A stretch of DNA of 31,243 nt from positions 1-31,243 of IMG/VR virus record IMGVR_UViG_3300003323_000399. One strand, 5' to 3'. Below are positions 4,177 through 20,747 of the stretch, piece after piece. This DNA comes from a virus. Made by a program: the position numbers and the translations under genes. The first letter of the stretch is position 1, and each line of letters begins with the position of its first letter. Below the pieces are notes generated by a model. It saw nothing but the letters and a program-made list of their open reading frames with translations. It was not told where the DNA came from and ran no database searches.

Positions 4177-4192
4177 TTGACGGCGCCGTCAA
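4177..4192. promoter_or_regulatory. Palindromic operator-like site (copy 1)
   Basis: TTGACGGCGCCGTCAA, a perfect 16-bp palindrome, 24 bp upstream of the leftward start at 4153. It lies 32 bp (about three helical turns) from the second copy at 4209. Both would be in the 5' leader of a transcript from the promoter at 4231-4258. See the first finding for the whole family. Confidence 0.75.
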
Positions 4193-4208
4193 AACTGCGT
4201 CACAGTTC

Positions 4209-4224
4209 TTGACGATGCCGTCAA
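4209..4224. promoter_or_regulatory. Palindromic operator-like site (copy 2, variant)
   Basis: TTGACGATGCCGTCAA; both outer half-sites are intact and only the centre differs. It begins at the predicted start point of the leftward promoter at 4231-4258, a position where a bound protein would block transcription. Confidence 0.7.
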
Positions 4225-4230
4225 CTTCCT

Positions 4231-4258
4231 ATTATGTCTATTTAACTTTTTCTTGCAA
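4231..4258 (-). promoter_or_regulatory. Sigma-70-like leftward promoter
   Basis: On the minus strand, TTGCAA (4258-4253, 4/6 match to the -35 consensus), a 16-bp spacer and CATAAT (4236-4231, 5/6 match to the -10 consensus). The surrounding DNA is markedly AT-rich for this genome. The predicted start is near 4224, at the edge of a palindromic site. It would drive 4153 down to 2920. Confidence 0.55.
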
Positions 4259-4259
4259 G

Positions 4260-4736
4260 TTACGTTTTGGAATCGATCACCTTCAAAAGTGCCCGTAAGG
4301 ATTCGGCCAGATCTTTGGAGGACGAAATCCGCGAGCCCTCGTCGTATCGCTCTAGCGCGGATCGAGCGTCGTTCACCGGATCGAACAGCGGCGTTTTGGG
4401 GTTCATGAGAACCCGTCGCGTAAACTCCGCGAGCGCTTCGCCATGCAGGCAGATGTTACCGTGCATGCGCCGAGAGTTCGCGCCGGAGGAATAACGCTGT
4501 GTTATTTCCATCGTTATCTGTAGCTCGGGGCCTGCGATGCGCGGGTGAATGACTCTTCGCACCGAAAGTTCAGTCGTACACGGCCCCGGATCGCGAGGCC
4601 CCGTGAATGTGCTCGCGAACGTCATGCCGTAGTCGCCAGGGGTCGATCCCCACTCAACTTTGGCCGAGCTGCCTAACGAGCTTTGAACTCCGAGCCGTTC
4701 CATAAAAGGAACAGTCACCATTTTGTATTCGGGCAT
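4260..4736 (-). CDS. Hypothetical phage protein
   Basis: 158 residues from ATG 4736. The first ~100 residues look beta-rich (MPEYKMVTVPFM, TPGDYGMTFASTFTGP, ELQITMEITQRYSS) and the last ~55 helical (DARSALERYDEG, SSKDLAESLRALLKVI). No family is recognised. It is set apart: a good leftward terminator lies 23 bp upstream (4759-4786) and the next operon's promoter directly downstream, so it may be a single-gene unit. No ribosome site is visible before the start and there is little room for a promoter, which is odd. It could be leaderless or served by read-through. Confidence 0.6.
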   Translation of the reverse strand: MPEYKMVTVPFMERLGVQSSLGSSAKVEWGSTPGDYGMTFASTFTGPRDPGPCTTELSVRRVIHPRIAGPELQITMEITQRYSSGANSRRMHGNICLHGEALAEFTRRVLMNPKTPLFDPVNDARSALERYDEGSRISSSKDLAESLRALLKVIDSKT

Positions 4737-4758
4737 GAGGAAGTATCCAGACGGCTAT

Positions 4759-4786
4759 AAAAAGACGGGGCCGCGAGCGCCCCGCC
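4759..4786 (-). terminator. Rho-independent terminator, leftward
   Basis: Minus-strand reading: GGCGGGGC (4786-4779), loop of 7, GCCCCGTC (4771-4764), then TTTTT. The 8-bp stem has a single G-T pair. It follows the stop of the gene at 4800 by 13 bp, so it ends the leftward transcript covering 5787-4800 and possibly longer ones. Confidence 0.75.
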
Positions 4787-4799
4787 AAGGGGTCATCGG

Positions 4800-5231: not shown

Positions 5232-5464
5232 ATGCGTTTGAACTCCCTGACCCGTGTTGCAGTGACCGTGATCGCGCCTCCGAGCAGCAGCGCACGGCCG
5301 GATTTGTTCTTGACGGCGCGCGACCCGAGAATGCGGATCAGCGTCACCACATCGACCGACACTTTAATGTCGGCAACTTTGTCTCCGAAAACCTCGTTAT
5401 CGGTTTCGATCAGCCGCTGAGGCTTGTCTAGCGGCTTTGCGGGGGCTCGCGGATTGGCGCGCAT
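5228..5464 (-). CDS. Hypothetical small phage protein
   Basis: 78 residues from ATG 5464, one base overlapping the upstream stop (TAATG). N-terminus MRANPRAPAKPLDKPQRLIE is basic and Pro-rich; the rest (NEVFGDKVADIKVSVDVVTL, RALLLGGAITVTATRVREFK) alternates strands and short helices and is basic at the end. No family recognised. The upstream extension to 5539 is Arg-rich shadow over another gene. Confidence 0.55.
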   Translation of the reverse strand: MRANPRAPAKPLDKPQRLIETDNEVFGDKVADIKVSVDVVTLIRILGSRAVKNKSGRALLLGGAITVTATRVREFKRI

Positions 5465-5787
5465 TACTCGCGTTCCGGCAGTTCGTCCACCAACCGCTCG
5501 AACTCGTCGTCGCGCGCCTCGATCCATTCTTCGGCGCAAATCCGCTCGACTTCGTCTTCGGAGTCGGGGTTATACGGGCACGTCGCGTCAGCGTTGCAAA
5601 CCGATTCGCAACCTTCCTGGCGAGCCTTGCGAACCTTCGCGGCGTTCTCGTTGAGGTGATTCATAGCCGCGTCGCGCAACGTGTCCGAAAACCACACGTC
5701 GTCGTGGATCACGTTACGACGGGTGTCAACGATCAAGTGAACCTTGATCCCATCGCGGATCTGTTCGGCGGGCTGGTAGCGATTCAT
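5464..5787 (-). CDS. Hypothetical acidic phage protein
   Basis: 107 residues from ATG 5787, the first gene after the palindrome pair at 5833-5891. N-terminal part MNRYQPAEQIRDGIKVHLIV and a middle helix (LRDAAMNHLNENAAKVRKAR), then a cysteine cluster (C-E-S-V-C-N-A-D-A-T-C) and a strongly acidic C-terminal third (PDSEDEVERICAEEWIEARD...DELPERE). The acidic tail is reminiscent of DNA-mimic or partner-binding tails, but this is only a composition remark. Family unknown. Confidence 0.6.
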   Translation of the reverse strand: MNRYQPAEQIRDGIKVHLIVDTRRNVIHDDVWFSDTLRDAAMNHLNENAAKVRKARQEGCESVCNADATCPYNPDSEDEVERICAEEWIEARDDEFERLVDELPERE

Positions 5788-5832
5788 GGCAAGCTCCGAT
5801 CGGTTTGTCGATGGGCGAAGAATGCCGCAAAG

Positions 5833-5848
5833 TTGACGGCGCCGTCAA
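5833..5848. promoter_or_regulatory. Palindromic operator-like site (copy 3)
   Basis: TTGACGGCGCCGTCAA; the palindrome here extends to 20 bp (AGTTGACGGCGCCGTCAACT, 5831-5850). It is 45 bp upstream of the leftward start at 5787 and 43 bp (about four helical turns) from copy 4. Confidence 0.75.
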
Positions 5849-5875
5849 CTTTTTATTGTGAACTGCTTTGCAGAA

Positions 5876-5891
5876 TTGACGGGGCCGTCAA
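5876..5891. promoter_or_regulatory. Palindromic operator-like site (copy 4, variant)
   Basis: TTGACGGGGCCGTCAA. On the minus strand its TGA is the stop codon of the gene 5888-6106, so site and gene end share bases. Confidence 0.7.
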
Positions 5892-6315: not shown

Positions 6316-6325
6316 GTGACCCCCT

Positions 6326-8665
6326 TCAAAACTCCCACTTGCCAAAGCGGAACGCTTCCCACGCATCAGGGACGTTGATCGGCCACGGTCTGCCGTCTGG
6401 TGTTCGCGCAAAGTCGGGGAGGATGCGCATCAGCGCTGTGTATTCTTCCTTCGAGCCCTGGCCGATCGGAACCTCGGTCACGTTTTCGTCGTGCGTGTGC
6501 ATGACGACAGGGTATCCGTGAGCTTCGAGTCGCAGCAGCGCGTGTGCCTGAACTTCACGAGCGAGATGCGACACAACGTTCTGCGTCAGAACCCCGCCGT
6601 ATAGCTTCATCCGCTGCCAACCTTCCTTGCCTTTGGTGGCGTTGCTGTTCCATCCCTCGTAACTGAGTTCCACTTCCCAAGGGCTCGCGTAATCTCGGCG
6701 CGACTGTTCGAGGCGAGGCGAGTGATAGCGGATGCATCCGCCGCTCGGAGGCAGGCAATACAGACAATCGCCAATCATCTGATAGACGACGCCGCGATAT
6801 TGGAACGCTTGCCCGTACCCCGTGCGATCGTGATCGGCACCGGGAAAGCGTACAGCGCTAATCGCTGCGCCTTCGAGCCCGTAGAGTTCGGCGCGTTCTT
6901 CGGCATAGTTGCCGCGTGCGTCGCGGTTAAACTTGTTCCGCGTCTGGCCGCCCCACAGCTCGACGGTGTTCGGGTTCTCGCGTCGCTGAGCTAGCGCCAC
7001 CTTTTTTATTTCGTCGTCGTCACCGATCAGCTTGTCGGCACCAAAGCGTTTCCAACCGCCAATCCATGCGCCGAAACCTCCGGCGAGAACAGGTAGCTTC
7101 CCCCATTTTTGCCGATCCTCGTGATGCTTGCGATGTTCCTTTTTATAATCGATGTAAAATTGAAGCGGCTTCCCGGTGAGTTTCGACGCCATCGCTTCAT
7201 AGATCATCCCGTGCGTGCGAAACACATCTAAGACCCACTCTTCACCTGCTAGAGCTGCGGTAACGACGGCTTGAATCGCAGTGAAGTCGGCACTTATGAG
7301 CCGCGTTCCTGGGCGAGCGATGATCATCGACCGCAGACAATTTGCGATCAGTTCGAGCGCGTCGCCGTATGCTGCTTCAACTGCTTCGAGCCGACGCGTT
7401 GCGACGATCGAGAGGGCGAGTTCGACTTGCGCGGGGTGATTGAAGTTGCCTTTATAGAGGTTCGCCACCTGCACCGCGCGTCCGTTCCAAAGCGAGGTGT
7501 GCGCGCCGTAATACACGTATTGATCGTACAAGCGCCCTTCGGCAGTTGAATGCGAGCGCATCGCGTACAGCTTTCTCACCGAGCCGAACGCGAGAATCTG
7601 GCGGATCTTCAACGCACGGAGCACGTTCAACGGGTATGGCCGCGTGAGCGCGTCGGCGACTGTTTCTTCGTCTAGGTCGGGGAGGAAGATTCCTTGCGCC
7701 GCCATCCATGCGAGCAATTGTGCTGCCTTGCTCGCTTCGGCAACTCCAGTCAACCGGAACAACTCGGCGTTGTATTTCGCGTAAGCCTGCTCGACGATGC
7801 AGATGCAGTCTTCGACCGCCTTCCGATCGATCTGCATCCCGCGAGCGTTGATGCGGAAATCCATCTGCCAGACCGCAAGCTCGTGCGGCGATAGATCAGC
7901 GATCTTTGTCGATGCCTCAGCTTCGGCAGCAATGTCTGTTTCGTTGTAGCTATAAAGGCGCTCGAACTCCGCCGGCTTCGTCTCGGGCGTCCACCTTATG
8001 TCGGGATCTTTCGCGGTTGGATTCTTCGGCTTCGTCAGCGTGCGCATGATCGCCGCGCCTTCGACATCTTTCGGTGTCACCAGGCGCAGCACATTGCCGG
8101 CGTCTTCCATCGCACCGGGGTATGCGCTCGCGCGAGCCTTCGCCATACAGCAGCGCAATTGCTCGATCTTCAGCTCGGGCCATCCGAACTTTGGCACGCA
8201 ATGAAGATTCCAGACGCGCCACTCGAACATCGTGTTCCACGCTTCGAGGATGCCGCCGCCGGCCACGTGAGCGATTAGATCGTGCGGGGGCGGCTCGCCT
8301 GGCTTCCATCGGCGGCGCCCTTTGCCGTCCTTCAGATCGTACGCGTAGCAGAGCACGCGGAACGACGGATGCAGCACATAGTTAACTGTGCCGACCGCTT
8401 TCAATCCTCGGTTTTGATCGGATAGGCCCGGCAGTGACTCCCACCAGCCGAACGCAGGTTTCCAAATCCACTCGCCGGCTTTGCGCTTCGTCGGCGCCTT
8501 CCACTTCCACTCGCCGGGCTGCGGCGGATCGACCCATCGATAGCCCGCCTCGGAATAAGTTTCGTAGTCGTGTTCGGGCAGAACAGTTGCGATGAACGGC
8601 CCGAGTTCGATTATTTGTCCGTTGAGCATGTGACCCAAAATCAAGGCCGGTCGCGCGCTCCCCAT
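6326..8665 (-). CDS. Phage family A DNA polymerase with 3'-5' exonuclease domain
   Basis: 779 residues (767 if ATG 8629 is used; neither start has a strong ribosome site). Copies phage DNA. Exonuclease domain at ~30-250: D33/E35 (H-D-Y-E-T-Y-S), W143-N144 (W-N-T-M-F-E-W) and Y240...D244 (Y-N-E-T-D). Polymerase domain ~450-730: motif A SADFTAIQAVV with D460, motif B GKLPVLAGGFG with K523, motif C V-M-H-T-H-D-E with D726/E727. Family members usually read D-(F/Y)-S-x-I-E in motif A; here Q465 replaces the Glu (codon CAA, checked). The arginine normally 4 residues before the motif B lysine is shifted by one. It works with the ssDNA-binding protein upstream and the primase/helicase genes. Confidence 0.93.
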   Translation of the reverse strand: MGSARPALILGHMLNGQIIELGPFIATVLPEHDYETYSEAGYRWVDPPQPGEWKWKAPTKRKAGEWIWKPAFGWWESLPGLSDQNRGLKAVGTVNYVLHPSFRVLCYAYDLKDGKGRRRWKPGEPPPHDLIAHVAGGGILEAWNTMFEWRVWNLHCVPKFGWPELKIEQLRCCMAKARASAYPGAMEDAGNVLRLVTPKDVEGAAIMRTLTKPKNPTAKDPDIRWTPETKPAEFERLYSYNETDIAAEAEASTKIADLSPHELAVWQMDFRINARGMQIDRKAVEDCICIVEQAYAKYNAELFRLTGVAEASKAAQLLAWMAAQGIFLPDLDEETVADALTRPYPLNVLRALKIRQILAFGSVRKLYAMRSHSTAEGRLYDQYVYYGAHTSLWNGRAVQVANLYKGNFNHPAQVELALSIVATRRLEAVEAAYGDALELIANCLRSMIIARPGTRLISADFTAIQAVVTAALAGEEWVLDVFRTHGMIYEAMASKLTGKPLQFYIDYKKEHRKHHEDRQKWGKLPVLAGGFGAWIGGWKRFGADKLIGDDDEIKKVALAQRRENPNTVELWGGQTRNKFNRDARGNYAEERAELYGLEGAAISAVRFPGADHDRTGYGQAFQYRGVVYQMIGDCLYCLPPSGGCIRYHSPRLEQSRRDYASPWEVELSYEGWNSNATKGKEGWQRMKLYGGVLTQNVVSHLAREVQAHALLRLEAHGYPVVMHTHDENVTEVPIGQGSKEEYTALMRILPDFARTPDGRPWPINVPDAWEAFRFGKWEF

Positions 8666-8706
8666 GACTCGGGGGAATGATCGGCGCCGGGCGTTGTTGC
8701 CGCTTT

Positions 8707-8895: not shown

Positions 8896-8896
8896 G

Positions 8897-8961: not shown

Positions 8962-8971
8962 GTGAATCACG

Positions 8972-9949
8972 TCACACGATCATCCCGTGCGCTCGTGCCG
9001 TTGCTTCGTCCCACCCGGCCGCCTGAAGCGCGGCCCACGTCACGCCGGGACCGGCTTTCGCCGTAACCTGCGGACCAGCGGGAGGCGGCGGAGGCGGCGG
9101 GGGTGGCGTCGCAGCCGCCATAGGAGCCACGGGCGCGGGCGGTGAGCCGGGCGGGCGCAGAATGCCAGGGTGCGGAGCGACACCCGTTGGCGGCGCCGTG
9201 GGAGGCAATACGGGCGCACCCGGCGGGGGTGCTGCAACTCCCCCAGGAACGCCAGGCATCGCGGGCGCCGAGGGAGGGCCAGGCGGCTGGCTTGCATTCG
9301 GCGCGAGCGCACCGGCCGGAACACGCTGCATGTTCGCTGGTGCCGCGCCCTGCCCGAATCCCGCTTGGCGAGGATCGGCGCCCGCGCTCTTTATTTCGCC
9401 ATCGGGGTGATACCCCGCGAGCGCGACCATCGCGTGATTGACGTAGATCCCCGGCTTCCCCATGTCGCCGTTAGAGTCGATCGAGCCCGCCACCTGCACG
9501 AACATACCGGGCCGAATCTCGCTCGGGTCGATCGCCTTCGTGCCGTCAGCGTTCCACGTCGTCGGAGGGAACGACGACTTGAAGAACACGACCCAATGGC
9601 CCGGCCATCCTTCGTTATCGCAAGGCTTGTTGCCTTCGTCGTTCGGGATCTGCGAATCGCCGTCTACGATCTTCCACGAAAACCGTTTCGTCGTAGTGCC
9701 GTCCTGATTGAACAAGCCGGGGAATCCTGCGGTGCCGACACCCCAGGCAATCGCGCCCCACTCGGTCTGCGCCCAGTGAGCGGTTCCCGCCTTTTCGTAA
9801 CCGACGCCAAACGTCCATTCCTGGCGCGGGCGCTGATCCTTCGTCAGCAACGGTTTGCCCGCTTTGTCTTTGTCGCGGGCTTTCGAGACTGATCCCGTCA
9901 GCATGCGGCCGACCGGGAACGTGAGATATTTGATCAACGGAGTAGGCAT
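8972..9949 (-). CDS. Phage single-stranded DNA-binding protein (DUF2815-like) with long Pro/Gly tail
   Basis: 325 residues from ATG 9949 with GAGGA upstream. Residues ~1-185 match the DUF2815 / phage ssDNA-binding pattern: FPVGRMLTGSVSKARDKD, WAQTEWGAIAWG, FSWKIVDGDS, GHWVVFFKSSFPP, R-P-G-M-F-V-Q-V-A-G and GIYVNHAMVALAGY. Residues ~200-295 are a Pro/Gly/Ala linker with a run of nine prolines. The end, TWAALQAAGWDEATARAHGM, resembles the short helical 'LxxAGW-(T/D)-(D/E)...HGM' tail seen in phage ssDNA-binding proteins, likely a partner-binding tip. It lies directly upstream of the polymerase, its likely partner. Confidence 0.82.
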   Translation of the reverse strand: MPTPLIKYLTFPVGRMLTGSVSKARDKDKAGKPLLTKDQRPRQEWTFGVGYEKAGTAHWAQTEWGAIAWGVGTAGFPGLFNQDGTTTKRFSWKIVDGDSQIPNDEGNKPCDNEGWPGHWVVFFKSSFPPTTWNADGTKAIDPSEIRPGMFVQVAGSIDSNGDMGKPGIYVNHAMVALAGYHPDGEIKSAGADPRQAGFGQGAAPANMQRVPAGALAPNASQPPGPPSAPAMPGVPGGVAAPPPGAPVLPPTAPPTGVAPHPGILRPPGSPPAPVAPMAAATPPPPPPPPPAGPQVTAKAGPGVTWAALQAAGWDEATARAHGMIV

Positions 9950-9981: not shown

Positions 9982-9997
9982 TTGACGGCGCCGTCAA
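9982..9997. promoter_or_regulatory. Palindromic operator-like site (copy 5)
   Basis: TTGACGGCGCCGTCAA, 32 bp upstream of the leftward start at 9949. On the minus strand its TGA is the stop codon of the gene 9994-10284. Confidence 0.75.
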
Positions 9998-10284: not shown

Positions 10285-10565
10285 TTTAGCCGCCGGTCGA
10301 TCACTTCGACCCCGAGAATGCGTGCGAGCGATTCGCCATGCATGGCGCCCTTCGCGTGCCGCTGAACCTCGTCAGCGTCGTCGAAGGTATAGACGCTAAT
10401 CGCGCCTCTTCGGCTCACTGCGCCTACGCCCACCTTTGGCCGCGTCGTCATCTGCGCATATTCGTCGATCACGATGCAGCCGAGCGACACGCGTTCCATG
10501 TGCCGCCCGAGAAAGTAGCATGCAATCCCGAACGCAATCGCACCGATGATTGCGAGCGCCGTCAC
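10281..10565 (-). CDS. Small membrane-anchored protein, function unknown
   Basis: 94 residues from GTG 10565 (GTGA overlap with the nuclease gene). Residues 2-20 (TALAIIGAIAFGIACYFLG) form one membrane span. The rest is soluble and cytoplasmic or periplasmic: GAVSRRGAISVYTFDDADEV, QRHAKGAMHGESLARILGVE. Its place between replication genes is curious for a membrane protein. It might tether a replication factor to the membrane, but there is no direct evidence. Confidence 0.6.
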   Translation of the reverse strand: MTALAIIGAIAFGIACYFLGRHMERVSLGCIVIDEYAQMTTRPKVGVGAVSRRGAISVYTFDDADEVQRHAKGAMHGESLARILGVEVIDRRLK

Positions 10566-11743
10566 CCTGGCGTCGCGCCGAACGCCTTGCGCGCCTCCGT
10601 GCCGTCGTCGGGAACTAGCTTCATCGCAGACGGCGTCGGTTCGGCGTAAACCTTCACCAACGATTCATCCGCGCCTGCCTTGATCGCCTGCGTGGGCGTG
10701 ACGACTTGGCATTTGCGAGAATTCGGATCGGTGTTCACCGCGCGGAAGTCTTTAGCCGGTGCCTGCATCCTTCCGAGCCCGAGCACGTCTTCGATCGTCA
10801 CGCCGGGTTTCCACTTCAACGGCGCACCGCCGCTTTCCATCTTCGCACCCGGCACCCGCTCGCCCTTGCGGAGCAACGATTCGATTTGCGTCTCTAAGCC
10901 TTCCTTGCGCGCTCTCAACACCTCGAAGGCGTTGCGCAGGATCGTCCACTCGGTTCCCATCGCCTCGGGCGTGAGTTCGAGCGGCGATTCTGCTTTACGC
11001 GTCCACTCGGATATATGCCCCGCCGCGAGCTGCAACGTCGGGCACACGTGGCGAGCGGGGCAATGATGAGTCATGCAGTGAGGGCCAGCGACCGCCTCTA
11101 GCGATTTGTTCCACATCAGCTCGCCGGGCTTGCGAAGCGCGCTCATTGCAGCGTTGTGAGCGATCGTCGCGAACGCGCGAAGGTCGGCGCCGTTCACGAT
11201 CCATTCGCGGATCGGCCCCGCGCGGTGGAACGCGCGAGGTTGAACGATCGTCATTTTTACGGTCGTCTCTTCATCGTTCAGCCCGAGCGTGTCGAGAAGC
11301 CCGATCGCGTAGGCCATCACCTGCCAATTCTCGAACACCTCCACCAGATCGAAGCCGTATTTGTAGTCCGGCACGTGCAACACTTGCTCGATACCGTCAT
11401 ACGACGCGCCGTCAGGCTCGCCCCAACACGCCGTCGGATGTATCCGAGTGATGACAACCGGGACGCCGGAGTAATGCCCGTACCGCAGCGTGCGCGCCCA
11501 CATCTTCGCGCCGTGGATCATGTCGTAATCGACCTTAATCCCCTTCACCGGCGTTTCGGTTCCGTAGGCGACTTCGTTCCCCTTCGCGTACTGTTTGGCG
11601 ACCCAATCGGCCGCGTTGCCTTCGAGCGATTCGGGCGTGTCAGGCTCGGGCGGAAGATCCCGAGACATCTGAACCCACGCATTGCAAGCTACCGTTAGCG
11701 CCAGGCTCGAAGGCGCGATCGGTGCGTGATAGCCGGCCATCAC
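10562..11743 (-). CDS. PD-(D/E)XK nuclease, DUF2800 type, with Cas4-like iron-sulfur cysteines
   Basis: 393 residues from ATG 11743 (ATGA overlap). The core nuclease motif is G-E-P-D-G (D111), then HVPDYKYG (D126 and K128) and a downstream Q141...Y145 helix (ENWQVMAYAIGLLD), as in RecB-family nucleases. C20 lies in an N-terminal helix (SSLALTVACNAW) and C223, C228 and C234 in CMTHHCPARHVCP; one early plus three late cysteines is how AddB/Cas4-type nucleases bind a 4Fe-4S cluster. The ~130-residue C-terminal part has long helices and a basic, Gly-rich stretch. Probable role: DNA end processing in phage recombination or replication. It lies next to the ssDNA-binding protein and a proline-rich protein. 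Confidence 0.82.
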   Translation of the reverse strand: MMAGYHAPIAPSSLALTVACNAWVQMSRDLPPEPDTPESLEGNAADWVAKQYAKGNEVAYGTETPVKGIKVDYDMIHGAKMWARTLRYGHYSGVPVVITRIHPTACWGEPDGASYDGIEQVLHVPDYKYGFDLVEVFENWQVMAYAIGLLDTLGLNDEETTVKMTIVQPRAFHRAGPIREWIVNGADLRAFATIAHNAAMSALRKPGELMWNKSLEAVAGPHCMTHHCPARHVCPTLQLAAGHISEWTRKAESPLELTPEAMGTEWTILRNAFEVLRARKEGLETQIESLLRKGERVPGAKMESGGAPLKWKPGVTIEDVLGLGRMQAPAKDFRAVNTDPNSRKCQVVTPTQAIKAGADESLVKVYAEPTPSAMKLVPDDGTEARKAFGATPG

Positions 11744-12822
11744 TTCACCCCGAATAGCTTGCGATCGACTTCGCCAACGAGATGCGCATTCTCCGGTGCA
11801 GACAACGCCCCGACGCCTTCGAGGCCCAGTTCGGAACAGACCGTTTCCATGTCGGTTTGCGTGATCTGATTCGCAGTCAACGCCTTGTTGAGCTTCACCA
11901 CCAGTTCAGGGAATGAAATAGCCGCAACAGATCCACCGGCAGTCGCCGAAGATGGCGCCGGGGGCGCGACAGTAGGGTTTACAGGTGCCACCGGTGCCAC
12001 GCTGGGAGTCGCATTCGGCGGCGCTTGGGGAGTCACCGGGGGCTGCGGCACCATGACCGGCTGACCGGCGTTGGACACTCCGTCATTTGGAGGCGGCATC
12101 GGCACACTCGCGGCACCGTTCGCAGAAAGACTCACCGGCGGGGCGGGCGGTGGCGGGGTAGGCACAGCAAAGGAAGGCGGCGGCGGAGGGGGCGGCACGG
12201 CTGCGTTTGGGGGCTGCCCCACAGCGGGTGCGGCCGCATTGGTAACGACGGAAAGTTCCGCTTCCACGGCTTTTTTGACGGCGTCGTCAAGTTTTCTTTT
12301 GTACCTCCACGAACCGTCGTTGTTCTTCGTCCGTGCCTCGGAATGGATGCGGGCATCCCAGGGGACGCCTTTTGAGTCGCGGTCAGGTACAGATGGGGCA
12401 GCCGGGGCAACTGGTGCAGGCGAGGCAGTGTTCGGTGTCGTCGAAGGCGCCGGGGCAGCAGACGGAGCCGCCGAGACGGGTGAACCGCTCGCAGTCGGGA
12501 AAGGGAGAACGGTAGCGCCACCTCCGAACGCCTGGCGGGCTGCATTGGCGTCGTTGTCGATTTCGCCGGTATCTTCACGGACGCCGATCAGCGCGGGCGT
12601 TTTCACGCCGGAGCCAGCCGGCAAGCCCTTCGCGAAGGCCGCTCGCGCCGCTGCGCTCACTGCATCGTCGTTCGCCTGTTGAGCGTTACCCTGCCGGGCC
12701 GCTTCGCTCGCCGCGTAACGCGCTTCACGCTCCGCGTTCGCGTTGATCGTCCCTTCACATATCGCAATGATCCACCGAAGGGTCGCGCTGTCTTCTCGAT
12801 CAGGATGGAACTCAATACGCAT
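11740..12822 (-). CDS. Proline/alanine-rich phage protein with WDxRIH-DGxWR motif
   Basis: 360 residues from ATG 12822, GGAGG 9 bases upstream. N-terminal ~60 residues are helical and charged. Residues ~150-185 hold the motif VPWDARIHSEARTKNNDGSW-RYKRK, well known as a small conserved module in phage and proteobacterial proteins of the recombination neighbourhood, of unclear function. The region ~190-300 is a very Pro/Ala-rich linker. The C-terminal ~60 residues (FPELVVKLNKALTANQITQT...GVGALSAPENAHLVGEVDRK) form a helical module. First gene of the leftward replication operon, divergent from the helicase. Confidence 0.65.
   Translation of the reverse strand: MRIEFHPDREDSATLRWIIAICEGTINANAEREARYAASEAARQGNAQQANDDAVSAAARAAFAKGLPAGSGVKTPALIGVREDTGEIDNDANAARQAFGGGATVLPFPTASGSPVSAAPSAAPAPSTTPNTASPAPVAPAAPSVPDRDSKGVPWDARIHSEARTKNNDGSWRYKRKLDDAVKKAVEAELSVVTNAAAPAVGQPPNAAVPPPPPPPSFAVPTPPPPAPPVSLSANGAASVPMPPPNDGVSNAGQPVMVPQPPVTPQAPPNATPSVAPVAPVNPTVAPPAPSSATAGGSVAAISFPELVVKLNKALTANQITQTDMETVCSELGLEGVGALSAPENAHLVGEVDRKLFGVK
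12275..12290. promoter_or_regulatory. Copy of the palindromic site inside a coding region
   Basis: TTGACGGCGTCGTCAA; read on the minus strand it is TTGACGACGCCGTCAA, identical to the site at 16881. It falls within the codons for L-D-D-A-V-K of the gene 11740-12822. It could be a real internal site or chance use of common codons. Confidence 0.35.
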
Positions 12823-12841: not shown

Positions 12842-12871
12842 TTGAGATGGCGGGCGATATTGATGTATGTT
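12842..12871 (+). promoter_or_regulatory. Possible rightward promoter overlapping a palindromic site
   Basis: TTGAGA (12842-12847), 18-bp spacer, TATGTT (12866-12871, 4/6). The predicted start near 12878 lies inside the palindrome at 12870-12885, leaving a leader of about 23 bases before ATG 12901. Confidence 0.4.
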
Positions 12872-12885
12872 GACGGCGCCGTCAA
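12870..12885. promoter_or_regulatory. Palindromic operator-like site (copy 6) in the divergent intergenic region
   Basis: TTGACGGCGCCGTCAA, the only full copy between the divergent starts at 12822 (leftward) and 12901 (rightward), and so able to control both. Leftward it can also serve as -35 (TTGACG, 17 bp, CAATAT). The rightward start is only 15 bp away, with no clear ribosome site. Confidence 0.75.
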
Positions 12886-12900
12886 ACTGTACGAACCGCA

Positions 12901-14679
12901 ATGCTTCGAGACTATCAACACGACTTAAAACAGCGCATATACGAGGCTTGGCACGCTGGCCACCGCAACGTCATTGCTACGATGGCGACCGGCGGTGGAA
13001 AAGCCGTATTGAACGGCGCCATTCTTCAAGAGTTCGACGGCCCGGCAGCCGTGACCGTTCATCGATCGCCGCTCGTGTCGCAGCTCGCATTGACTCTCAA
13101 CCGCGAACACGTGCCGCATTCGATCATCGCTCCAAAGCAGTTGATCCGCGAAATCATCCGGCTAGAAGTCGATACGCACGGCAAGTCGTTTTATCGAGCG
13201 ACGGCGCCGATCCGCGTCGCCAGCACGAAGACGCTAGCGAATCGCGACGGCAAAGATCGTTGGTTCGACCAATGCAAGCTCGCGCTAGTAGACGAGGGGC
13301 ATCACGTTTTAGCGGATAGCGAAGTCGCGCGAGCGCTGCATCTGCTGCCGAATGCCTGGGGGCTTTTCGTCACGGCCCACGCGTGCCGCGCGGATGGGCT
13401 CGGGTTGGGGCGGGCGACGAAAGAAAACCCCGAGCGCGACGGACTCGCCGATGCGTTGGTCGTCGGCCCGCACGCACGGTATTTGATCGATCGCGGGTTT
13501 TTGTGCGATTGGGACATACGTTGCCCGCCGTTGGATATTGACATCTCCGACATTCCGATCGGTGCGTCGGGCGACCTTGTTCAGAAGACACTGCGCGAAC
13601 GTGTGCACGCCTCGAAAGTTCTCGTTGGCTCGATCGTCAAAGAGTACAAGCGCCGATGCGAGAAGGAAGGGCGCGCGTTACTCGGGCTGACGTTCGTCGT
13701 CGATAAGGAAGAGGCTGACAAAACCTGCAAGGCATTCCGCGAAGCAGGCGTGCCGACGGAAATCGTCACCGACGACACGAGCATCGCCGCTCGCGCAATC
13801 ATCATGAAACAGTTCGCCGCCGGGAAGCTGCGGCAGCTCGTGTCCGTCGATGTGCTGGGCGAAGGGGTTGACGTGCCGGCCGTCGAGATAATCTCGCTCG
13901 GGCGTCACACCGAGTCATGGCAGGTGTTCTGTCAACAGATGGGGCGAGGCACACGACCGCTAATCACTGACGCTGCAATCTGGGAACAATGGGGCAATCT
14001 CTCGAACGATCAGCGCATCGCCGCGATTGCACGAAGCCCGAAGCCCCGCTTTTACGTCCACGATCACGTGGGCAACGTGATGCGCCACTACCTGCGGCGC
14101 GGGTCGTTCGACTCGCAGCAGGAATACACTCTCGATCGCCGCTCCGGCCGCGAGAAGCGCGACCCGAACGCAATCAAACTGCGCACGTGCCAGAACGAAG
14201 AATGCTTCAAGCCGTATAGCGCGATCCTTTTGCGGTGCCCGTACTGCCAGACGATGAAGCCGCCACCGGATCGACGCGGAGCGCCCGAACAGGTGGAGGG
14301 CGACTTAGAAGAACTCGACTTCGCCATCCTCAAAGCGATGCGCGGGGAAATCGAGCGCATCGACGGAGCGCCAACGATTCCTCACAACGTCACGGGCATC
14401 GTGGCCGAATCGATCCGCAAGAACCATTATCTGCGACAAGTCGCTCAGGCACCGCTGCGTGAGGCAATCGCGCTTTGGTCCGGGTGGCAGCGCGATGTGA
14501 TGCATCTGCAGGATCGCGAGATTTACCGCTTATTCTGGCATCGCTTCGGAATCGATATTGCCTCCGCGCAAGTTCTCGGCGCGCGTGAGGCGGGTGAGCT
14601 TCAATCGAAGATCCGCGCCGAGTTAGAACGTAACAATATAGTGAGGTTGGACCATGGCACCGCCGCTGCTGTCGCTTGA
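12901..14679 (+). CDS. SF2 DEAD/DEAH-like helicase with altered Walker A and C-terminal zinc ribbon
   Basis: 592 residues. Superfamily 2 layout: Q-like N-terminus (MLRDYQHDLKQRIYEAW), motif I M-A-T-G-G-G-K-A at 28-35, motif II L-V-D-E-G-H (D131, E132), motif III F-V-T-A-H (158-160), R-A-D-G-x-G-L, motif V VDVLGEGVDVP (~317-326) and motif VI Q-Q-M-G-R-G-T-R (345-352). Zinc ribbon C430, C435, C446, C449. Two departures: motif I ends K-A rather than K-T/S (codon GCC, checked) and T-A-H replaces T-A-T-P. It resembles RadD/ComFA-like helicases used in phage replication or recombination. The short leader has no obvious ribosome site. Confidence 0.87.
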   Translation: MLRDYQHDLKQRIYEAWHAGHRNVIATMATGGGKAVLNGAILQEFDGPAAVTVHRSPLVSQLALTLNREHVPHSIIAPKQLIREIIRLEVDTHGKSFYRATAPIRVASTKTLANRDGKDRWFDQCKLALVDEGHHVLADSEVARALHLLPNAWGLFVTAHACRADGLGLGRATKENPERDGLADALVVGPHARYLIDRGFLCDWDIRCPPLDIDISDIPIGASGDLVQKTLRERVHASKVLVGSIVKEYKRRCEKEGRALLGLTFVVDKEEADKTCKAFREAGVPTEIVTDDTSIAARAIIMKQFAAGKLRQLVSVDVLGEGVDVPAVEIISLGRHTESWQVFCQQMGRGTRPLITDAAIWEQWGNLSNDQRIAAIARSPKPRFYVHDHVGNVMRHYLRRGSFDSQQEYTLDRRSGREKRDPNAIKLRTCQNEECFKPYSAILLRCPYCQTMKPPPDRRGAPEQVEGDLEELDFAILKAMRGEIERIDGAPTIPHNVTGIVAESIRKNHYLRQVAQAPLREAIALWSGWQRDVMHLQDREIYRLFWHRFGIDIASAQVLGAREAGELQSKIRAELERNNIVRLDHGTAAAVA

Positions 14680-15536: not shown

Positions 15537-16006
15537 CGCTTGACGAGTGGGCGGATAAGTGGGGCATCCCCGACGGCGCTATTTACGACATGGCGCTGAT
15601 CGGGGAGGGCGCCCCCGAAACCCCCGAGGAAGCGCGCAACGAGGCTGACGTGCAACAGATCGTGCGCCTCGAAGCAGCCGAGGCGGGGTGGCATCTGTGG
15701 CGAAATAACCGGGGCGCTTTTCAGGACAAAACCGGTCGCTGGATACGCTACGGGCTCGCCAACGACTCGAAGAAACTCGGCGACGTGCTGAAGTCGCACG
15801 ATCTGATCGGGTGGGGGCCGCGACGAATCGAAGTTGACGACGTGGGCAAGATTATTGCTCAATTCAAGTCTAGAGAGATTAAGCCGCCAGGGTGGGCCTA
15901 CACCGGCACCGATCGCGAGAAAGCGCAATTGCGGTGGCATAACCTCGTTATCGCTTCAGGTGGAGATTCAGCAATTGTTAACGGAAAAGGGTCGATCCGT
16001 GCGTGA
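15533..16006 (+). CDS. VRR-NUC domain endonuclease
   Basis: 157 residues, GTG start overlapping the previous stop by 4 bp. After a ~35-residue N-terminal extension the VRR-NUC pattern follows: E37 in N-E-A-D-V-Q-Q-I-V, G-W-x-L-W-R-N-N-R-G-A-F, a phage-type G-R-W-I-R-Y-G, S-H-D-L-I-G-W with D90, R-E-I-K with E115 and K117, and A-Q-L-R-W with Q132, then S-G-G-D. These are the metal-binding and catalytic positions of the PD-(D/E)XK fold. Phage VRR-NUC proteins are often found near SF2 helicases and may act as structure-selective nucleases in replication or recombination. Confidence 0.85.
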   Translation: MTLDEWADKWGIPDGAIYDMALIGEGAPETPEEARNEADVQQIVRLEAAEAGWHLWRNNRGAFQDKTGRWIRYGLANDSKKLGDVLKSHDLIGWGPRRIEVDDVGKIIAQFKSREIKPPGWAYTGTDREKAQLRWHNLVIASGGDSAIVNGKGSIRA

Positions 16007-16292
16007 CGTGATCTTACAGGCGGCGCTGGAGATGTCAGCGAAGCCCGGCGGGTTCAAGTCGCTCACGCGGGACGGGGTTGCCGCGCATGCCCACGTGGCG
16101 ACGGGCCTTGTCACCTACTATTTTAAGAGCATGAAAAAACTGCGCGACGCTGTCGTGACGACTGCAATCGCAGGGGAAAACCTTGCGGTGTTGTCGGAGG
16201 CGATCGGCTATCGCCACGCGAAGGCGTTGAACGCACCCCATGCGTTGCGCGTCCGTGCTCTAAAGTCTTTCATTGCGCAACAGGGAGCGTAA
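15999..16292 (+). CDS. Minimal TetR-type DNA-binding protein
   Basis: 97 residues from GTG 15999 (GGAAAAGGG upstream), overlapping the VRR-NUC gene by 8 bp. Residues 1-55 match the TetR N-terminal helix-turn-helix: DVILQAALEMSAKPGGFKSL, T-R-D-G-V-A-A-H-A-H-V-A-T-G-L-V-T-Y-Y-F-K-S-M-K-K-L-R-D-A-V (helices 2-3 then the typical Y-Y-F-K-S start of helix 4). TetR proteins bind palindromes of about 15 bp as dimers. The ligand-binding domain (~140 residues in normal TetR proteins) is missing; only ~40 residues follow, enough for a short dimer helix. It is the one regulator-like gene in the window and a candidate for binding the TTGACGGCGCCGTCAA sites. That link is inference. Confidence 0.7.
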   Translation: MRDVILQAALEMSAKPGGFKSLTRDGVAAHAHVATGLVTYYFKSMKKLRDAVVTTAIAGENLAVLSEAIGYRHAKALNAPHALRVRALKSFIAQQGA

Positions 16293-16295
16293 GCG

Positions 16296-16660: not shown

Positions 16661-16884
16661 TGAGCTACTTCGAGTCGAATTGGCGTCTGCAGTCGCACGC
16701 TCGGTTGATCCACCTCACGATCGCCAACGACGCAGACGTGCGCGCTCAACTGGCGAAAGCGAAGATCCACCAAATGTCGCTCGACGCCGTGACGGCGATC
16801 ACACGCGCCACTATCAAGGCGCATTTGCTGATGACTGTCGATCGCTTCGTGAACAACATACAAGTAGGCCGCCCGCCGATTTGA
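16660..16884 (+). CDS. Hypothetical small phage protein
   Basis: 74 residues from GTG 16660, overlapping the preceding stop by one base. Helical throughout: SYFESNWRLQSHARLIHLTI, DVRAQLAKAKIHQMSLDAVT, ITRATIKAHLLMTVDRFVNN. Its TGA stop (16882-16884) is part of the palindromic site at 16881-16896. Family unknown. Last gene of the rightward operon before a new promoter. Confidence 0.6.
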   Translation: MSYFESNWRLQSHARLIHLTIANDADVRAQLAKAKIHQMSLDAVTAITRATIKAHLLMTVDRFVNNIQVGRPPI

Positions 16885-16908
16885 CGACGCCGTCAACAGC
16901 GTTGTAAT
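16881..16908 (+). promoter_or_regulatory. Rightward promoter built on palindromic site (copy 7)
   Basis: TTGACGACGCCGTCAA (16881-16896). Its left half TTGACG is a 5/6 -35 box; 16 bp on, TGTAAT (16903-16908) is a 5/6 -10 box. Predicted start ~16915, about 29 bases before ATG 16944. Best case in the window for the palindrome carrying a -35. A bound regulator would block RNA polymerase. Confidence 0.65.
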
Positions 16909-16943
16909 TTCCGGCACTCGACCTTCACCGCTTTACGAGAACG

Positions 16944-19199
16944 ATGCGAATTACATACGGGGCGCGTGCCGACGAACTGGGCGTCGGTGCGTTGTACGAC
17001 TTGACGTGGCCCCAGTTTGTTGAATGGCTCGCCCAGCACCCGCGACCGCAATCGCATATATCCCTCGCCGAATATCCCGCGCTCGCCGCAGCACCGTCCG
17101 CCAGTCCCGAGGGGCAACGGCTCGCAGCGGCGAAGATGGGCGCTTGGATCTGCTTTGCGCAGTTCGACGGGAATCGCCGCCACCTCGCACACAACCCACG
17201 CGGGTGCGCTGTAACGCTCGATCTAGATTACAGCGGGCTTGACGCCCAGGGGATCTGCGACCGGCTCAAGGGCTACACGTTCGTAGCGTATACAACCTTT
17301 GGCCACACGAATGAGCGTCCGCGCTGGCGCGTGATCGTACCGTTAGCAGGCGAGACCAACGCGGCCACGCACCGGGCCACCTGGGCGGCGCTCAATCATC
17401 TGTTCGGCGGAGCGGCCGACGTATCGGCGAAGGACATCACGCGCCTTAACTATCTGCCGGGGCCGTGCGTCGCTCCGAGCAACACGCAGATGTGTCAAGG
17501 CGAAGGCGTTTTATTTTCGGTAGTGCCCGCTCCACCTGAGACACCCGCCGCGCTGAGTGAAGGCAGCGACGGCCCGGTGGAAGGGTGGAGCGGGCCAGAC
17601 GACGACGATGAACTCGTGCGTAAGATCTGCGCGATCATCATGCGCCCCGAAGAACGACTCGGGTCGGGCAAGTCGCTGTTTCAAGCGCTATGGGAAGGCG
17701 ACGCCGATGCGCTCGCCGATCGCTATCCGCCGAAAGATCCGAGCCAGCGTTGGGAATACACGCGCGCCGATCTGGCGTTGATGAACGAACTTCTATATTT
17801 CACCGGCCGCGATGAAGAACGGTCGATGCGGATCGCGCTGCAGGCCGGCTGCGTGACTGTACGCGGCGAGCCGCACGAGGCGGAACGTAAACTCAAATAC
17901 GCATTGAAGGTCGCGCAGAAGGGCGCACCGCGCGTCTACAACTGGCCATCGCTGCCGGTGCTGTCTGCCCCAGGTGCCGAGCCCGACACCGTCACCGCGA
18001 TGGGCACGCTCGACTTAACCCGCAAGCCGAACGGCCAGTTCGCTCCGACGTTGCTCAACATCACGCAGGTACTAGCGCTGCCTCAGATGCCGCGCCTTGC
18101 GTTCGACGTGTTCCGGGGCGAGGTGATGATCGCGCCCACCGGCACCGAGGAATGGCGACCCATCGACGACGTGGTAACGACGCGCATCATGATGGATTTC
18201 GAGCGCCTGGGATTCGCGACGATCGCTGTCGAGTATATGCGTCGTGCGATCGATGAAGTCGGCAACCGCCAGACGTTCGACAGCGCGATTAAATGGCTCG
18301 ACTCGCTGGAGTGGGACGGAACGCCGCGCATCGATCGATTCTTCGCAGCGTACGCCGGCACGGAAGACGACAACTACACGCGCGCCGTCTCAGCGTACAC
18401 ATGGACCGCGCTTGCCGGCCGCGCGCTCGTGCCGGGCATCAAGGCAGACATGGTGCCGGTGTTGATCGGCGGGCAGGGCGCACGCAAGACGTGGAGTCTG
18501 CAAGCGCTCGTGCCGCACCCCGATCACTATGCGGAGCTGTCGTTGATGGATCGCGACACCGACACCGCGAGACTGATGCGCGGCAAGCTCGTGTGCGAAA
18601 TCGGCGAGCTACGCGGACTGTCGAAGCGCGACCTTGAGTCCGTTAAATCGTTCATCACCCGCACGCACGAACAATGGATTCCCAAATATCGGGAGTTCGC
18701 TATCACCTTCCCGCGTCGATGCCTGATGCTGGGCACGACGAACCAACACCAATTCTTAGAAGACGATACGGGGAACCGCCGCTGGCTGCCGATCGTCGTC
18801 TCGAACCTGCAGCGTGAAGCGATCGAACGTGATCGGCTGCAGCTATGGGCGGAGGGCGCCGCGCGCTTCCGGCAGTCGGGCATCGCCTGGCGTGACGCCG
18901 AGTCGCTGGCCGCCACTCGCCATGCGCTCCACATGGTCGTCGATTCATGGGAGACCGCAATCGAGCGCTGGCTGATCGAGATACCGATTCCGATGCTCGG
19001 GGAGACTCAGCCGCCGATGCCGCCGTGCGAGCGCCCGTTCCACATCGCCGACGTACTGCGCGGGGCGCTCAACATCCCACCCGAGCGCATGAACAGGGCG
19101 AGCGAAATGCGGGTCGCGCGGGTGCTGCGAGCGCTCGGATACGAGGTGAAACCGGTCTGGATCAACGGAAAAACGATCCGTCGATGGGTCAAGAACTGA
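16944..19199 (+). CDS. Primase-helicase: PrimPol-like N-terminus with VirE-type SF3-like ATPase
   Basis: 751 residues. N-terminal ~190 residues carry a primase-like pattern: T-L-D-L-D (D93, D95), Y-T-T-F-G-H-T (H121) and RPRWRVIVPL (125-134). Residues ~225-300 resemble the linker region of such primase-polymerases (SLFQALWEGDADALADRYPP, ADLALMNELLYFTGRD). The ATPase is of virulence-associated E type: Walker A IGGQGARKT (508-516), C-E-I-G-E-L (551-556), GTTN (597-600), F-L-E-D-D-T-G-N-R-R-W (604-614). A C-terminal winged-helix-like part follows. It likely opens and primes the phage origin. The non-coding region directly downstream has origin-like repeats. Confidence 0.87.
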   Translation: MRITYGARADELGVGALYDLTWPQFVEWLAQHPRPQSHISLAEYPALAAAPSASPEGQRLAAAKMGAWICFAQFDGNRRHLAHNPRGCAVTLDLDYSGLDAQGICDRLKGYTFVAYTTFGHTNERPRWRVIVPLAGETNAATHRATWAALNHLFGGAADVSAKDITRLNYLPGPCVAPSNTQMCQGEGVLFSVVPAPPETPAALSEGSDGPVEGWSGPDDDDELVRKICAIIMRPEERLGSGKSLFQALWEGDADALADRYPPKDPSQRWEYTRADLALMNELLYFTGRDEERSMRIALQAGCVTVRGEPHEAERKLKYALKVAQKGAPRVYNWPSLPVLSAPGAEPDTVTAMGTLDLTRKPNGQFAPTLLNITQVLALPQMPRLAFDVFRGEVMIAPTGTEEWRPIDDVVTTRIMMDFERLGFATIAVEYMRRAIDEVGNRQTFDSAIKWLDSLEWDGTPRIDRFFAAYAGTEDDNYTRAVSAYTWTALAGRALVPGIKADMVPVLIGGQGARKTWSLQALVPHPDHYAELSLMDRDTDTARLMRGKLVCEIGELRGLSKRDLESVKSFITRTHEQWIPKYREFAITFPRRCLMLGTTNQHQFLEDDTGNRRWLPIVVSNLQREAIERDRLQLWAEGAARFRQSGIAWRDAESLAATRHALHMVVDSWETAIERWLIEIPIPMLGETQPPMPPCERPFHIADVLRGALNIPPERMNRASEMRVARVLRALGYEVKPVWINGKTIRRWVKN

Positions 19200-19474
19200 T
19201 CCGATCGGCGGTTCGCCTTACGACCTTACGACCCTTACGACCTTTTCTTTAACCTTTCCTGAAAAAACTACTGTTAAATAGAGGGGAATATGGGGCGTTG
19301 GGGAAAGGTTGAAGCAAGGTCGTAAGGTCGTTAGGTCGTAAGGCGGGATCGGCGATTGATCGGCGCGCAATGATCCGATCCGATCGATCGGCGATCCAAC
19401 AATCAACGGGTTATCCATTGTTGCGCGGCTCGGGCTCGCGCGTGTAGCGTGGCAGGAAAACGGAGGGTCGATCG
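19200..19474. other. Candidate replication origin (non-coding, repeat-rich)
   Basis: A 275-bp gap after the primase-helicase gene. It holds the long inverted repeat 19214-19345, an AT-rich stretch at ~19243-19290, seven GATC sites in 50 bp (19347-19396), an inverted repeat CAACAAT/ATTGTTG (19397-19403 and 19417-19423), and TTATCCATT (19411-19419, 7/9 match to the E. coli DnaA box). Iterated sites, an easily melted stretch and an adjacent initiator-type gene are the usual parts of a phage origin. Function is inferred. Confidence 0.55.
19214..19345. repeat. Long imperfect inverted repeat made of TTACGACC iterons
   Basis: Left arm 19214-19259 and right arm 19302-19345 pair at roughly 40 of 44 positions, separated by 42 bp. 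Each arm has three 8-bp units: TTACGACC at 19218, 19226 and 19235, and the reverse complement at 19318, 19326 (one change) and 19334. The outer ends (CGCCTTACGACCT / AGGTCGTAAGGCG) pair perfectly except for the junction unit. Confidence 0.85.
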
Positions 19475-19819
19475 ATGATTGATGCGATTTTGTTCAGTTC
19501 GGTGAGCGACACGATCGACGAAGCGTCCGCGCTCTCGATCACCGCGAAGTTCCGCGACACAAAGGCGCGAGCTGATGGCACGCCGACCACGGTCGAGTGG
19601 GCGTTGCGTGAGCCGGCTTGTAACCGACAGATTCAGTCGTTCACGCCGCTCACCCCTGGAACGACGGTAACGCTCGCCACGACCGCCGCGCAGAACACCT
19701 GTCTGCATTACAACGATTCCGAGCAACGTGAGGTGACGATCCTGATAGATCGGGGCCTCGCGACTCAGTTCACTGCGACGTACCGTTACACGGTCAACAA
19801 CATAGGAGCGATCTGTTAA
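19475..19819 (+). CDS. Conserved-type phage protein with beta-sandwich look
   Basis: 114 residues from ATG 19475, GGAGGG 9 bases upstream. Beta-rich sequence: ALSITAKFRDTKARADGTPT, T-T-V-E-W-A-L-R, PLTPGTTVTLATTAAQN, EVTILIDRG, QFTATYRYTVNNIG. This order (strand, 'TPTTVEW', a 'TPG-T-V-T-L' strand, then Y-R-Y-x-V-x-N) recalls small Ig-like proteins coded near phage packaging genes, possibly virion-associated. No exact family named. First gene after the candidate origin; overlaps the next by one base (TAATG). Confidence 0.55.
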   Translation: MIDAILFSSVSDTIDEASALSITAKFRDTKARADGTPTTVEWALREPACNRQIQSFTPLTPGTTVTLATTAAQNTCLHYNDSEQREVTILIDRGLATQFTATYRYTVNNIGAIC

Positions 19820-20325
19820 TGAACGAAGCAACACTCGAACAGCGGTTGAAGGAAAAGGGCCTCACCGCGCCACGCATCACGCCCGAGCGAGTCGCGGCGG
19901 TGATCAAGGACACGACCTATTTCGTCCATGGCACGCTGACGATCTGCGTGATCACGTTGGCGAACGGCTTCACGGTGACGGGCGAGAGTGCGTGCGCCTC
20001 GCCGGAGAACTTCGACGAGAAGATCGGCGAAGAACTGGCGTTCGCCCAGGCCCGAAACAAAATCTGGCAGCTCGAAGGCTACCTGTTGAAGCAGTTCATG
20101 TCGGGGCGCGGCTTCGACGTGCCTGCAACGTCGTCGCCCTACATGCGCGCGATCCTCGAACTCAACGAGCTGACGTTGCGGATCGATGGCGCCGAGCGGT
20201 TCATCGGCGGGGAGAAATACAAGGACCTTGACGCGACTCAGCGTTCGCTGTTGGCGTCTCAACTTCAATACATGCAGGGGTATCACGCCGCGTTGAAACA
20301 GCGGCTCGATAACTGGCGCGACTGA
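19819..20325 (+). CDS. Phage gp49-like protein fused to a helical crAss001_48-like region
   Basis: 168 residues from ATG 19819. Residues ~1-98 match the Gp49-like family: ITPERVAAVIKDTTYFVHGT, LTICVITLANGFTVTGESAC, F-D-E-K-I-G and K-I-W-Q-L-E-G-Y-L-L. Residues ~115-166 match another common small phage module: L-x-x-R-I-D-G-A-E-R-F, F/Y-K-D-L...LLASQLQYMQGYHAALKQRL. The two are often separate or joined in phages. Function of both is unknown. It lies between the origin region and the late genes. Confidence 0.7.
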   Translation: MNEATLEQRLKEKGLTAPRITPERVAAVIKDTTYFVHGTLTICVITLANGFTVTGESACASPENFDEKIGEELAFAQARNKIWQLEGYLLKQFMSGRGFDVPATSSPYMRAILELNELTLRIDGAERFIGGEKYKDLDATQRSLLASQLQYMQGYHAALKQRLDNWRD

Positions 20326-20333
20326 TCCAAAAG

Positions 20334-20349
20334 TTGACGGAGCCGGCAA
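20334..20349. promoter_or_regulatory. Degenerate palindromic site with possible -35
   Basis: TTGACGGAGCCGGCAA; left half perfect, right half with one change (CCGGCAA for CCGTCAA). TTGACG, 18 bp, GATCAT (4/6) would make a promoter for the gene at 20400. Confidence 0.45.
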
Positions 20350-20399
20350 GGGGCGGCGATCATGTCGCCCCTTTCCACGCAACTAGCGAGGCTCCGACG

Positions 20400-20723
20400 A
20401 TGGCACAGAAAACCGAAACAGCAGCGACGCGCGATCCGCTCACCGATACGCCGGTCGCCCCTTCCGCCCCCGAAGCTCCCCCGAAGATCGTCCGCACCGA
20501 AGCGCCCCAGGCTGCGGAGCGTCCGGCCGTGTCGATCGGTCGAATTGTCCACGTGACCGATGCCGAAACGGGCAAGGTGCACCCGGCGATCGTCACGCAC
20601 GCGAATGATGACCAGTCGGTTGTCGCGACGATCTTCAAACCCAATGAGACGGTGGCCGGCGTGGGGTTCGCCCAGGCGCTCGGCAATCTGGCTCAGCGGG
20701 GGCATTGGCACTGGCCGATGTAA
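20400..20723 (+). CDS. Small conserved-type phage protein
   Basis: 107 residues from ATG 20400 with GAGG 8 bases upstream. N-terminal ~45 residues are a Thr/Pro/Ala-rich spacer. The C-terminal ~60 residues form a compact module: SIGRIVHVTDAETGKVHPAI, VTHANDDQSVVATIFKP and a closing H-W-H-W-P-M. This 'G-x-I-V-H-V...H-P-A-I-V...H-W-P' form is a frequent small phage protein coded just ahead of terminase genes, function unknown. It ends 8 bp before a degenerate palindromic site. Confidence 0.6.
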   Translation: MAQKTETAATRDPLTDTPVAPSAPEAPPKIVRTEAPQAAERPAVSIGRIVHVTDAETGKVHPAIVTHANDDQSVVATIFKPNETVAGVGFAQALGNLAQRGHWHWPM

Positions 20724-20731
20724 TTGCGTAG

Positions 20732-20747
20732 TTGACGGCGGCGGCAA
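20732..20747. promoter_or_regulatory. Degenerate palindromic site upstream of the late operon
   Basis: TTGACGGCGGCGGCAA; left half TTGACGGC intact, right half changed at two places. It is the last member of the family before the packaging genes, and none was seen in the structural region beyond. Confidence 0.4.

Follow-up and report, generated by a model that had tools for sequence, protein, structure and literature searches.

The phage genome held in IMG/VR as IMGVR_UViG_3300003323_000399 (31,243 bp; the whole record, here called the window) carries a 16 bp palindrome of the type TTGACGNNNNCGTCAA at nine sites. It is likely that this palindrome is the operator of a phage-encoded repressor, here named mini-TetR, and that it is deployed as a genome-wide regulon. 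What can be read directly from the sequences is the sites, their promoter architecture, their conservation, their co-occurrence with mini-TetR and their covariation with its recognition helix. The same pairing of repressor and operator recurs, seemingly without having been described, in dozens of known phages of very different bacteria.

Palindromes and early promoters

At up to three mismatches the window holds 11 matches where 0.43 are expected, and 0/100 shuffled sequences reached 11. Exact copies of TTGACGNNNNCGTCAA numbered 8 (0.00 expected) and one-mismatch copies 2 (0.05 expected), while the reversed pattern, scanned as a control, had no match in the window. A preliminary description of this DNA had listed nine sites, and their positions and degrees of match are as given there: exact at 4177, 5833, 9982 and 12870, with one mismatch at 5876 and 16881, and with two at 4209, 20334 and 20732. 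Its statement that all copies are intergenic is not quite true, because an exact-consensus copy at 12275–12290 that had been overlooked falls within the open reading frame at 11740–12822 (minus strand). Copies had also been said to be missing from the virion genes, and the only match there is one with three mismatches at 24636, in a portal-size gene, which is at chance level.

When the perfect palindrome was used to scan 2.9 million viral contigs, 31 stretches were returned, and relaxed copies were then counted across the whole records. Nine environmental phages (G001, G003, G004, G006, G007, G018, G023, G025 and G028) have 5–18 copies of TTGACGNNNNCGTCAA at up to one mismatch, and the remaining motif-fetched records examined have 1–3 copies each. 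Gene families link the nine to the window phage or to one another, chiefly through the replication module, whereas the unrelated records with 1–3 copies have almost no gene families in common; genes in unannotated contigs were called with a simple script. Used as queries, the primase and mini-TetR of the window returned one IMG/VR relative only. The preliminary description had proposed a single regulon of operator/promoter sites across the early operons, to be doubted if copies were equally frequent in unrelated GC-rich genomes or were not conserved in relatives. We found neither. Unrelated GC-rich phage contigs (G026, G013, G009 and G017) have one exact copy each, which is the copy by which the contig was selected, and 1–2 one-mismatch matches. 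The site ahead of the gene for a proline-rich (Pro-rich) protein lies 46–50 bp from the start codon in 7/7 phages that have the gene. The single regulon is thus supported, and the architecture and probable regulator described below are additions to it.

Sites were oriented by the downstream gene in three sets, namely the motif-selected phages, named phages, and held-out contigs fetched by the mini-TetR protein. The gene-distal arm, TTGAC, is the -35 box and is nearly invariant, and the mirrored arm falls in the spacer. Across the three sets the gene-proximal arm has 45 mismatches and the distal -35 arm has 3. The retention of TTGAC at every site, correctly seen earlier, is explained by its being the -35 half of the palindrome. 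In the motif-selected phages a TAnnnT hexamer peaks at a spacer of 17 nt, with 22/41 sites at 16–18 nt and 0/41 on the opposite strand; the corresponding figures for the named phages are 22/38 and 3/38. In the held-out set TAnnnT is found at exactly 17 nt in 23/23 sites placed 30–60 bp from a start. The median distance from palindrome to start codon is 45–49 bp. In most relatives the -35 box reads TTGACG, and compared with a sigma70-type promoter (-35 TTGACa, -10 TAtaaT, approximately 17 nt apart) the relatives conform, while the window has one strict site and the rest are partial. With TTGAC as -35 box, the mirror arm in the spacer and the -10 element at 17 nt, we read the palindromes as operators built into sigma70-type promoters. 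Some sites in G001, G018, G025, G003 and G023 are only 20–24 bp from the start codon, which would place the transcription start at or beside the ATG and suggests leaderless mRNAs.

The sites and promoter elements predicted in the window are:
4177–4192, minus strand: operator, exact consensus; overlaps the -35 box of the promoter for gene 3926–4153 (minus strand), 24 bp from its start
4162–4167, minus strand: candidate -10 element TAGACT for the 4177 site, 19 nt spacer
4209–4224, no strand assigned: second of two tandem operators, lying 32 bp (about three helical turns) from 4177; TATTAT at 15 nt on the plus strand
5833–5848, minus strand: operator, exact consensus; gene 5464–5787 (minus strand) begins 46 bp downstream, with a weak -10 element CATTCT and 18 nt spacer in between
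5876–5891, no strand assigned: second of two tandem operators, lying 43 bp (about four helical turns) from 5833
9982–9997, minus strand: operator, exact consensus; gene 8972–9949 (minus strand) begins 33 bp downstream; orthologous sites in G001, G004 and G028
12275–12290, no strand assigned: exact-consensus copy within the Pro-rich gene, not followed by a gene start
12842–12871, plus strand: sigma70-like promoter, TTGAGA-18-TATGTT, in front of the helicase operon with the mini-TetR gene; a consensus match only
12870–12885, no strand assigned: operator between divergent operons, 48 bp from the Pro-rich/DUF2800 operon (minus strand) and 16 bp from the helicase operon (plus strand)
16881–16896, plus strand: operator ahead of the VapE-like primase gene 16944–19199 (plus strand), at a distance of 48 bp; -10 element TAATTT, 18 nt spacer
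20334–20349, plus strand: weak, degenerate copy, 51 bp upstream of gene 20400–20723 (plus strand); overlaps a terminator-like hairpin, GGGGCG...CGCCCCTTT
20732–20747, plus strand: weak, degenerate copy with no gene start in range

The copy at 12275 is probably non-functional or coincidental. Those at 20334 and 20732 are rated weak because the former overlaps a hairpin and neither has a -10-like hexamer of full TAnnnT form. The 12870 site provides the -35 box of the minus-strand Pro-rich promoter, which has its -10 element, CAATAT, at 12857–12862 (minus strand), and the -10 element of the plus-strand promoter at 12842–12871 runs into the same operator. Both divergent promoters could be served by this one operator, which could also autoregulate mini-TetR, whose gene lies in the operon behind the plus-strand promoter. 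The spacings in the tandem pairs 4177/4209 and 5833/5876 (32 and 43 bp) are near whole helical turns, which suggests cooperative binding.

Replication genes come first in the window, followed by packaging and virion genes. The replication module consists of a family A DNA polymerase, a DUF2800/PD-(D/E)XK nuclease, a ResIII helicase, a VRR-nuclease-like protein and a VapE-like primase. The genes that bear on the sites are:
6326–8665, minus strand: family A DNA polymerase, downstream of the gene under the 9982 site
10562–11743, minus strand: DUF2800/PD-(D/E)XK nuclease, in the same operon as the Pro-rich gene
11740–12822, minus strand: Pro-rich protein (phrog_11133), putatively operator-controlled, its site kept at 46–50 bp in 7 phages
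12901–14679, plus strand: ResIII/Helicase_C helicase, first gene of the operon holding mini-TetR
15999–16292, plus strand: mini-TetR, 97 amino acids, candidate regulator of all sites (Pfam, PHROG, AlphaFold2 and Foldseek)
16944–19199, plus strand: VapE-like primase/helicase, putatively controlled from the 16881 site

Mini-TetR and its recognition helix

The window mini-TetR matches Pfam TetR_N (PF00440) with an E-value of 2.2e-6 and 27.8 bits, above the gathering cut-off of 24, and relatives score up to 38.8. The TetR_N helix-turn-helix (HTH) occupies residues 5–52 of 97, and the remaining approximately 45 residues form a short all-helical C-terminus. Hence the N-terminal HTH of the TetR family is present, and the C-terminal ligand-binding and dimerisation domain of TetR proteins, whose full length is approximately 190–230 amino acids, is not; because that domain is absent, we use the name mini-TetR and do not call the protein a classical TetR. 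NCBIfam TetR models cover only the first 50–60 residues and score far under their cut-offs. The profile of phrog_8723, annotated as 'unknown function', matches the window protein with an E-value of 8e-24 and relatives down to 1e-35. The AlphaFold2 model is all-helical (mean predicted local distance difference test score 92.7) and ends after a 16-residue helix, and its best Foldseek matches are TetR-family structures, none with an E-value below 0.001.

Homologues are encoded by 7/9 relatives, six detected by BLAST and that of G003 by profile, and by 93–106 sequenced phages, mostly Klebsiella phages. An operator precedes the mini-TetR gene in G003, G004, G006, G007, G018 (two mismatches), G025 and JD001 (43 bp), as expected of an autoregulator. 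In SppYZU01 and Scuro (OR348818.1, 21427–21927) an additional segment, resembling a degenerate second HTH, is fused to the N-terminus of mini-TetR. A prophage or host origin was considered and rejected; mini-TetR was not found in the bacterial genome contigs, which were searched for close relatives only, and plasmids gave only weak TetR matches.

De novo palindrome discovery, which uses no motif, made TTGAC-N6-GTCAA or, shifted inwards, TGACG-N4-CGTCA the top palindrome in JD001, MSW-3, PEAT2, AAM22, phiPLPE and CP-T1; it came second in MR14 and third in Scuro. Composite sites, in which the palindrome is combined with a -10 element, number 4 in SppYZU01, 8 in JD001, 9 in MSW-3, 10 in PEAT2, 9 in AAM22, 4 in phiPLPE, 10 in CP-T1 and 7 in Scuro. 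Controls in which mini-TetR has another recognition helix have 0–1, and Salmonella phage 9NA has 0. The 21 contigs fetched solely by mini-TetR sequence contain 33 sites in 10 kb loci, versus 6 for the reversed pattern. In JD001, sites lie ahead of the genes for mini-TetR and the single-stranded-DNA-binding protein, of further early genes, and of small genes inserted against the virion operons; no site was found upstream of the annotated JD001 virion genes in their own orientation.

Composite sites are accompanied by a recognition helix of the form VxxG[LSTI][VI], with at least four in 8/10 named phages, and phages in which P, Q or A replaces the glycine (PD0307, 97.13, SFCi1, PY6, R9Y1, EVC2013 and AeroV_348) have 0–1, in comparisons uncorrected for phylogeny. 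G048, with serine at this position, has no TTGAC-N6-GTCAA match in 46 kb; G003, with alanine, is an exception in which the motif is present. In PY6 (PP806536.1), where the helix is ISPPAVQHHF, the TTGAC palindrome is replaced by six exact copies of TAGCG-N6-CGCTA, 5/6 of them between a -35 TTGAC and a -10-like element and 38–40 bp from a start codon. The PY6 copies at 7108, 8015, 12383, 19993 and 28189 mostly have an outer GTCAA 10 bp beyond, forming a second, wider inverted repeat. Separately, 9NA (KJ802832.1), which lacks mini-TetR, has TAATT-N7-AATTA upstream of genes 11 times (0.1 expected) and AGAAT-N1-ATTCT 10 times; the former is possibly another dispersed operator.

Probable role and alternatives

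From the sequences we infer direct binding, dimerisation, a repressive sign and a timing as follows. Each operator is fused to a host-type sigma70 promoter, with its distal arm as the -35 box, its second arm in the spacer and the -10 element at 17 nt, and a mini-TetR dimer on the 16 bp site would cover the -35 box and spacer and exclude RNA polymerase. At entry, the early promoters would fire using the host polymerase. Mini-TetR, itself an early gene product with its own operator in several relatives, would then accumulate and shut the early, replication and small-gene promoters together. Most likely, then, it represses early and accessory genes in a coordinated way and also regulates itself. 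It is probably no lysogeny repressor of the classical type, since most of these phages are described as lytic and a search of bacterial genomes for close relatives of the protein found none.

Several observations weigh against this explanation. In the window only the 16881 site is a strict composite, and the other sites have partial -10 elements at 15–19 nt that are weaker than those of the relatives. In MR14, which has the palindrome, only one strict composite site was counted; Psp6, with a G-type helix that contains an insertion, has no composite sites. Sites are found where mini-TetR was not detected, in vsMR (OR687460.1, complete; 3 composite sites), G023 (4) and G028 (4), which may have a different regulator or, for G023 and G028, be incomplete contigs. 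De novo discovery found no cognate palindromes for PD0307, 97.13, SFCi1, R9Y1 and EVC2013. The loci of the mini-TetR-fetched set are related to each other, so the 23 held-out sites are not independent. Finally, mini-TetR lacks the part with which TetR proteins usually dimerise.

Given the weak -10 elements in the window, the same protein on the same site might instead recruit RNA polymerase, as an activator or a promoter-specificity factor. We regard this as improbable, as a dimer bound across the -35 hexamer and spacer would block sigma region 4, and sigma70 should not require assistance where, as in most relatives, a TTGACG -35 box is combined with TAnnnT at the optimal 17 nt. The presence of the motif in G023, G028 and vsMR would fit a host regulator exploited by the phages, with mini-TetR a bystander. 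However, phages that carry the motif infect Klebsiella, Edwardsiella, Pectobacterium, Pantoea, Vibrio, Acinetobacter and Iodobacter, and the motif follows the recognition helix of mini-TetR and is missing from Carvaje, a Klebsiella phage like JD001, which makes a host regulator very unlikely. CRP/FNR-type sites were also rejected; FNR boxes have TTGA-N6-TCAA spacing, N6 rather than the N8 seen here. That the palindromes are simply strong promoters or hairpins such as transcription terminators is scarcely credible, for although some copies stand before T-rich DNA called terminator-like (5829–5852, 12274–12291), such calls are at shuffle level (18 versus 18.8), the sites lie ahead of genes rather than behind them, with a fixed spacing to the start codon and a -10 element at 17 nt, and the second arm is conserved though sigma70 does not read it.

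Repression by mini-TetR would give the phrog_8723 family a testable function in approximately 100 sequenced phages, many of which are lytic on Klebsiella and of interest for therapy. The model lets operator positions be predicted in the genomes of mini-TetR phages, offers a natural helix/operator code and indicates that repressor-based, genome-wide control of early genes is possible in phages without lysogeny genes. A more doubtful extension is that a one-domain TetR regulon in virulent phages is a stand-alone immunity or early shut-off circuit that operates without lysogeny genes. If so, it could repress superinfecting siblings or underlie the temperate behaviour of CP-T1, and the recognition helix and the -35-embedded operator would co-evolve, setting immunity groups.

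Comparison with known systems

Among these mostly lytic phages CP-T1 is an exception, having been described as temperate, yet its genome is without known lysogeny genes (PMC3391216), and the proposed regulon may bear on how it can behave in this way. The same paper noted tetR genes in phiPLPE, CP-T1 and 138 and guessed at an osmotic-stress-type role; the words 'promoter' and 'operator' are absent from it. The 'putative TetR regulator' genes of phiPLPE, CP-T1, 138 and JD001 belong to the mini-TetR family. The GC-rich repeats reported for phiPLPE, CP-T1 and 138 (PMC3391216) are direct-repeat arrays and not these palindromes. A literature search for the palindrome in several spellings returned no match, and none of the papers found connects phage TetR genes with operators.

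PhiC31, a phage of Streptomyces, is temperate; its large repressor is produced in three isoforms, and its sites are palindromes (conserved inverted repeats) at early promoters. To our knowledge, its repressor system includes no TetR-type protein. The likeness lies in many genome-dispersed operators under one phage repressor, and the phiC31 and L5 systems have 18–30 dispersed sites, as cited in PMC4557955. The stoperators of mycobacteriophage L5 and other cluster A phages are likewise genome-wide sites for one repressor (PMC9283540, PMC4557955), but they are asymmetric, bound by a monomer, also found away from promoters, and stop elongation, whereas the sites described here are symmetric, within promoters and at a fixed distance from starts. 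In cluster K mycobacteriophages the ESAS/SAS repeats also have inverted-repeat arms, precede a subset of genes and are conserved by orthologous gene (PMC3203893); they differ in being tied to translation starts, with 17 bp arms, a variable spacer and no regulator known. TetR-family repressors, exemplified by Tn10 TetR and tetO, share the TetR_N domain, a palindromic operator within the promoter and likely autoregulation. However, Tn10 TetR has approximately 200 amino acids and controls one divergent promoter pair, while mini-TetR, with 97 amino acids and no C-terminal ligand-binding domain, appears to govern a multi-operon phage regulon.

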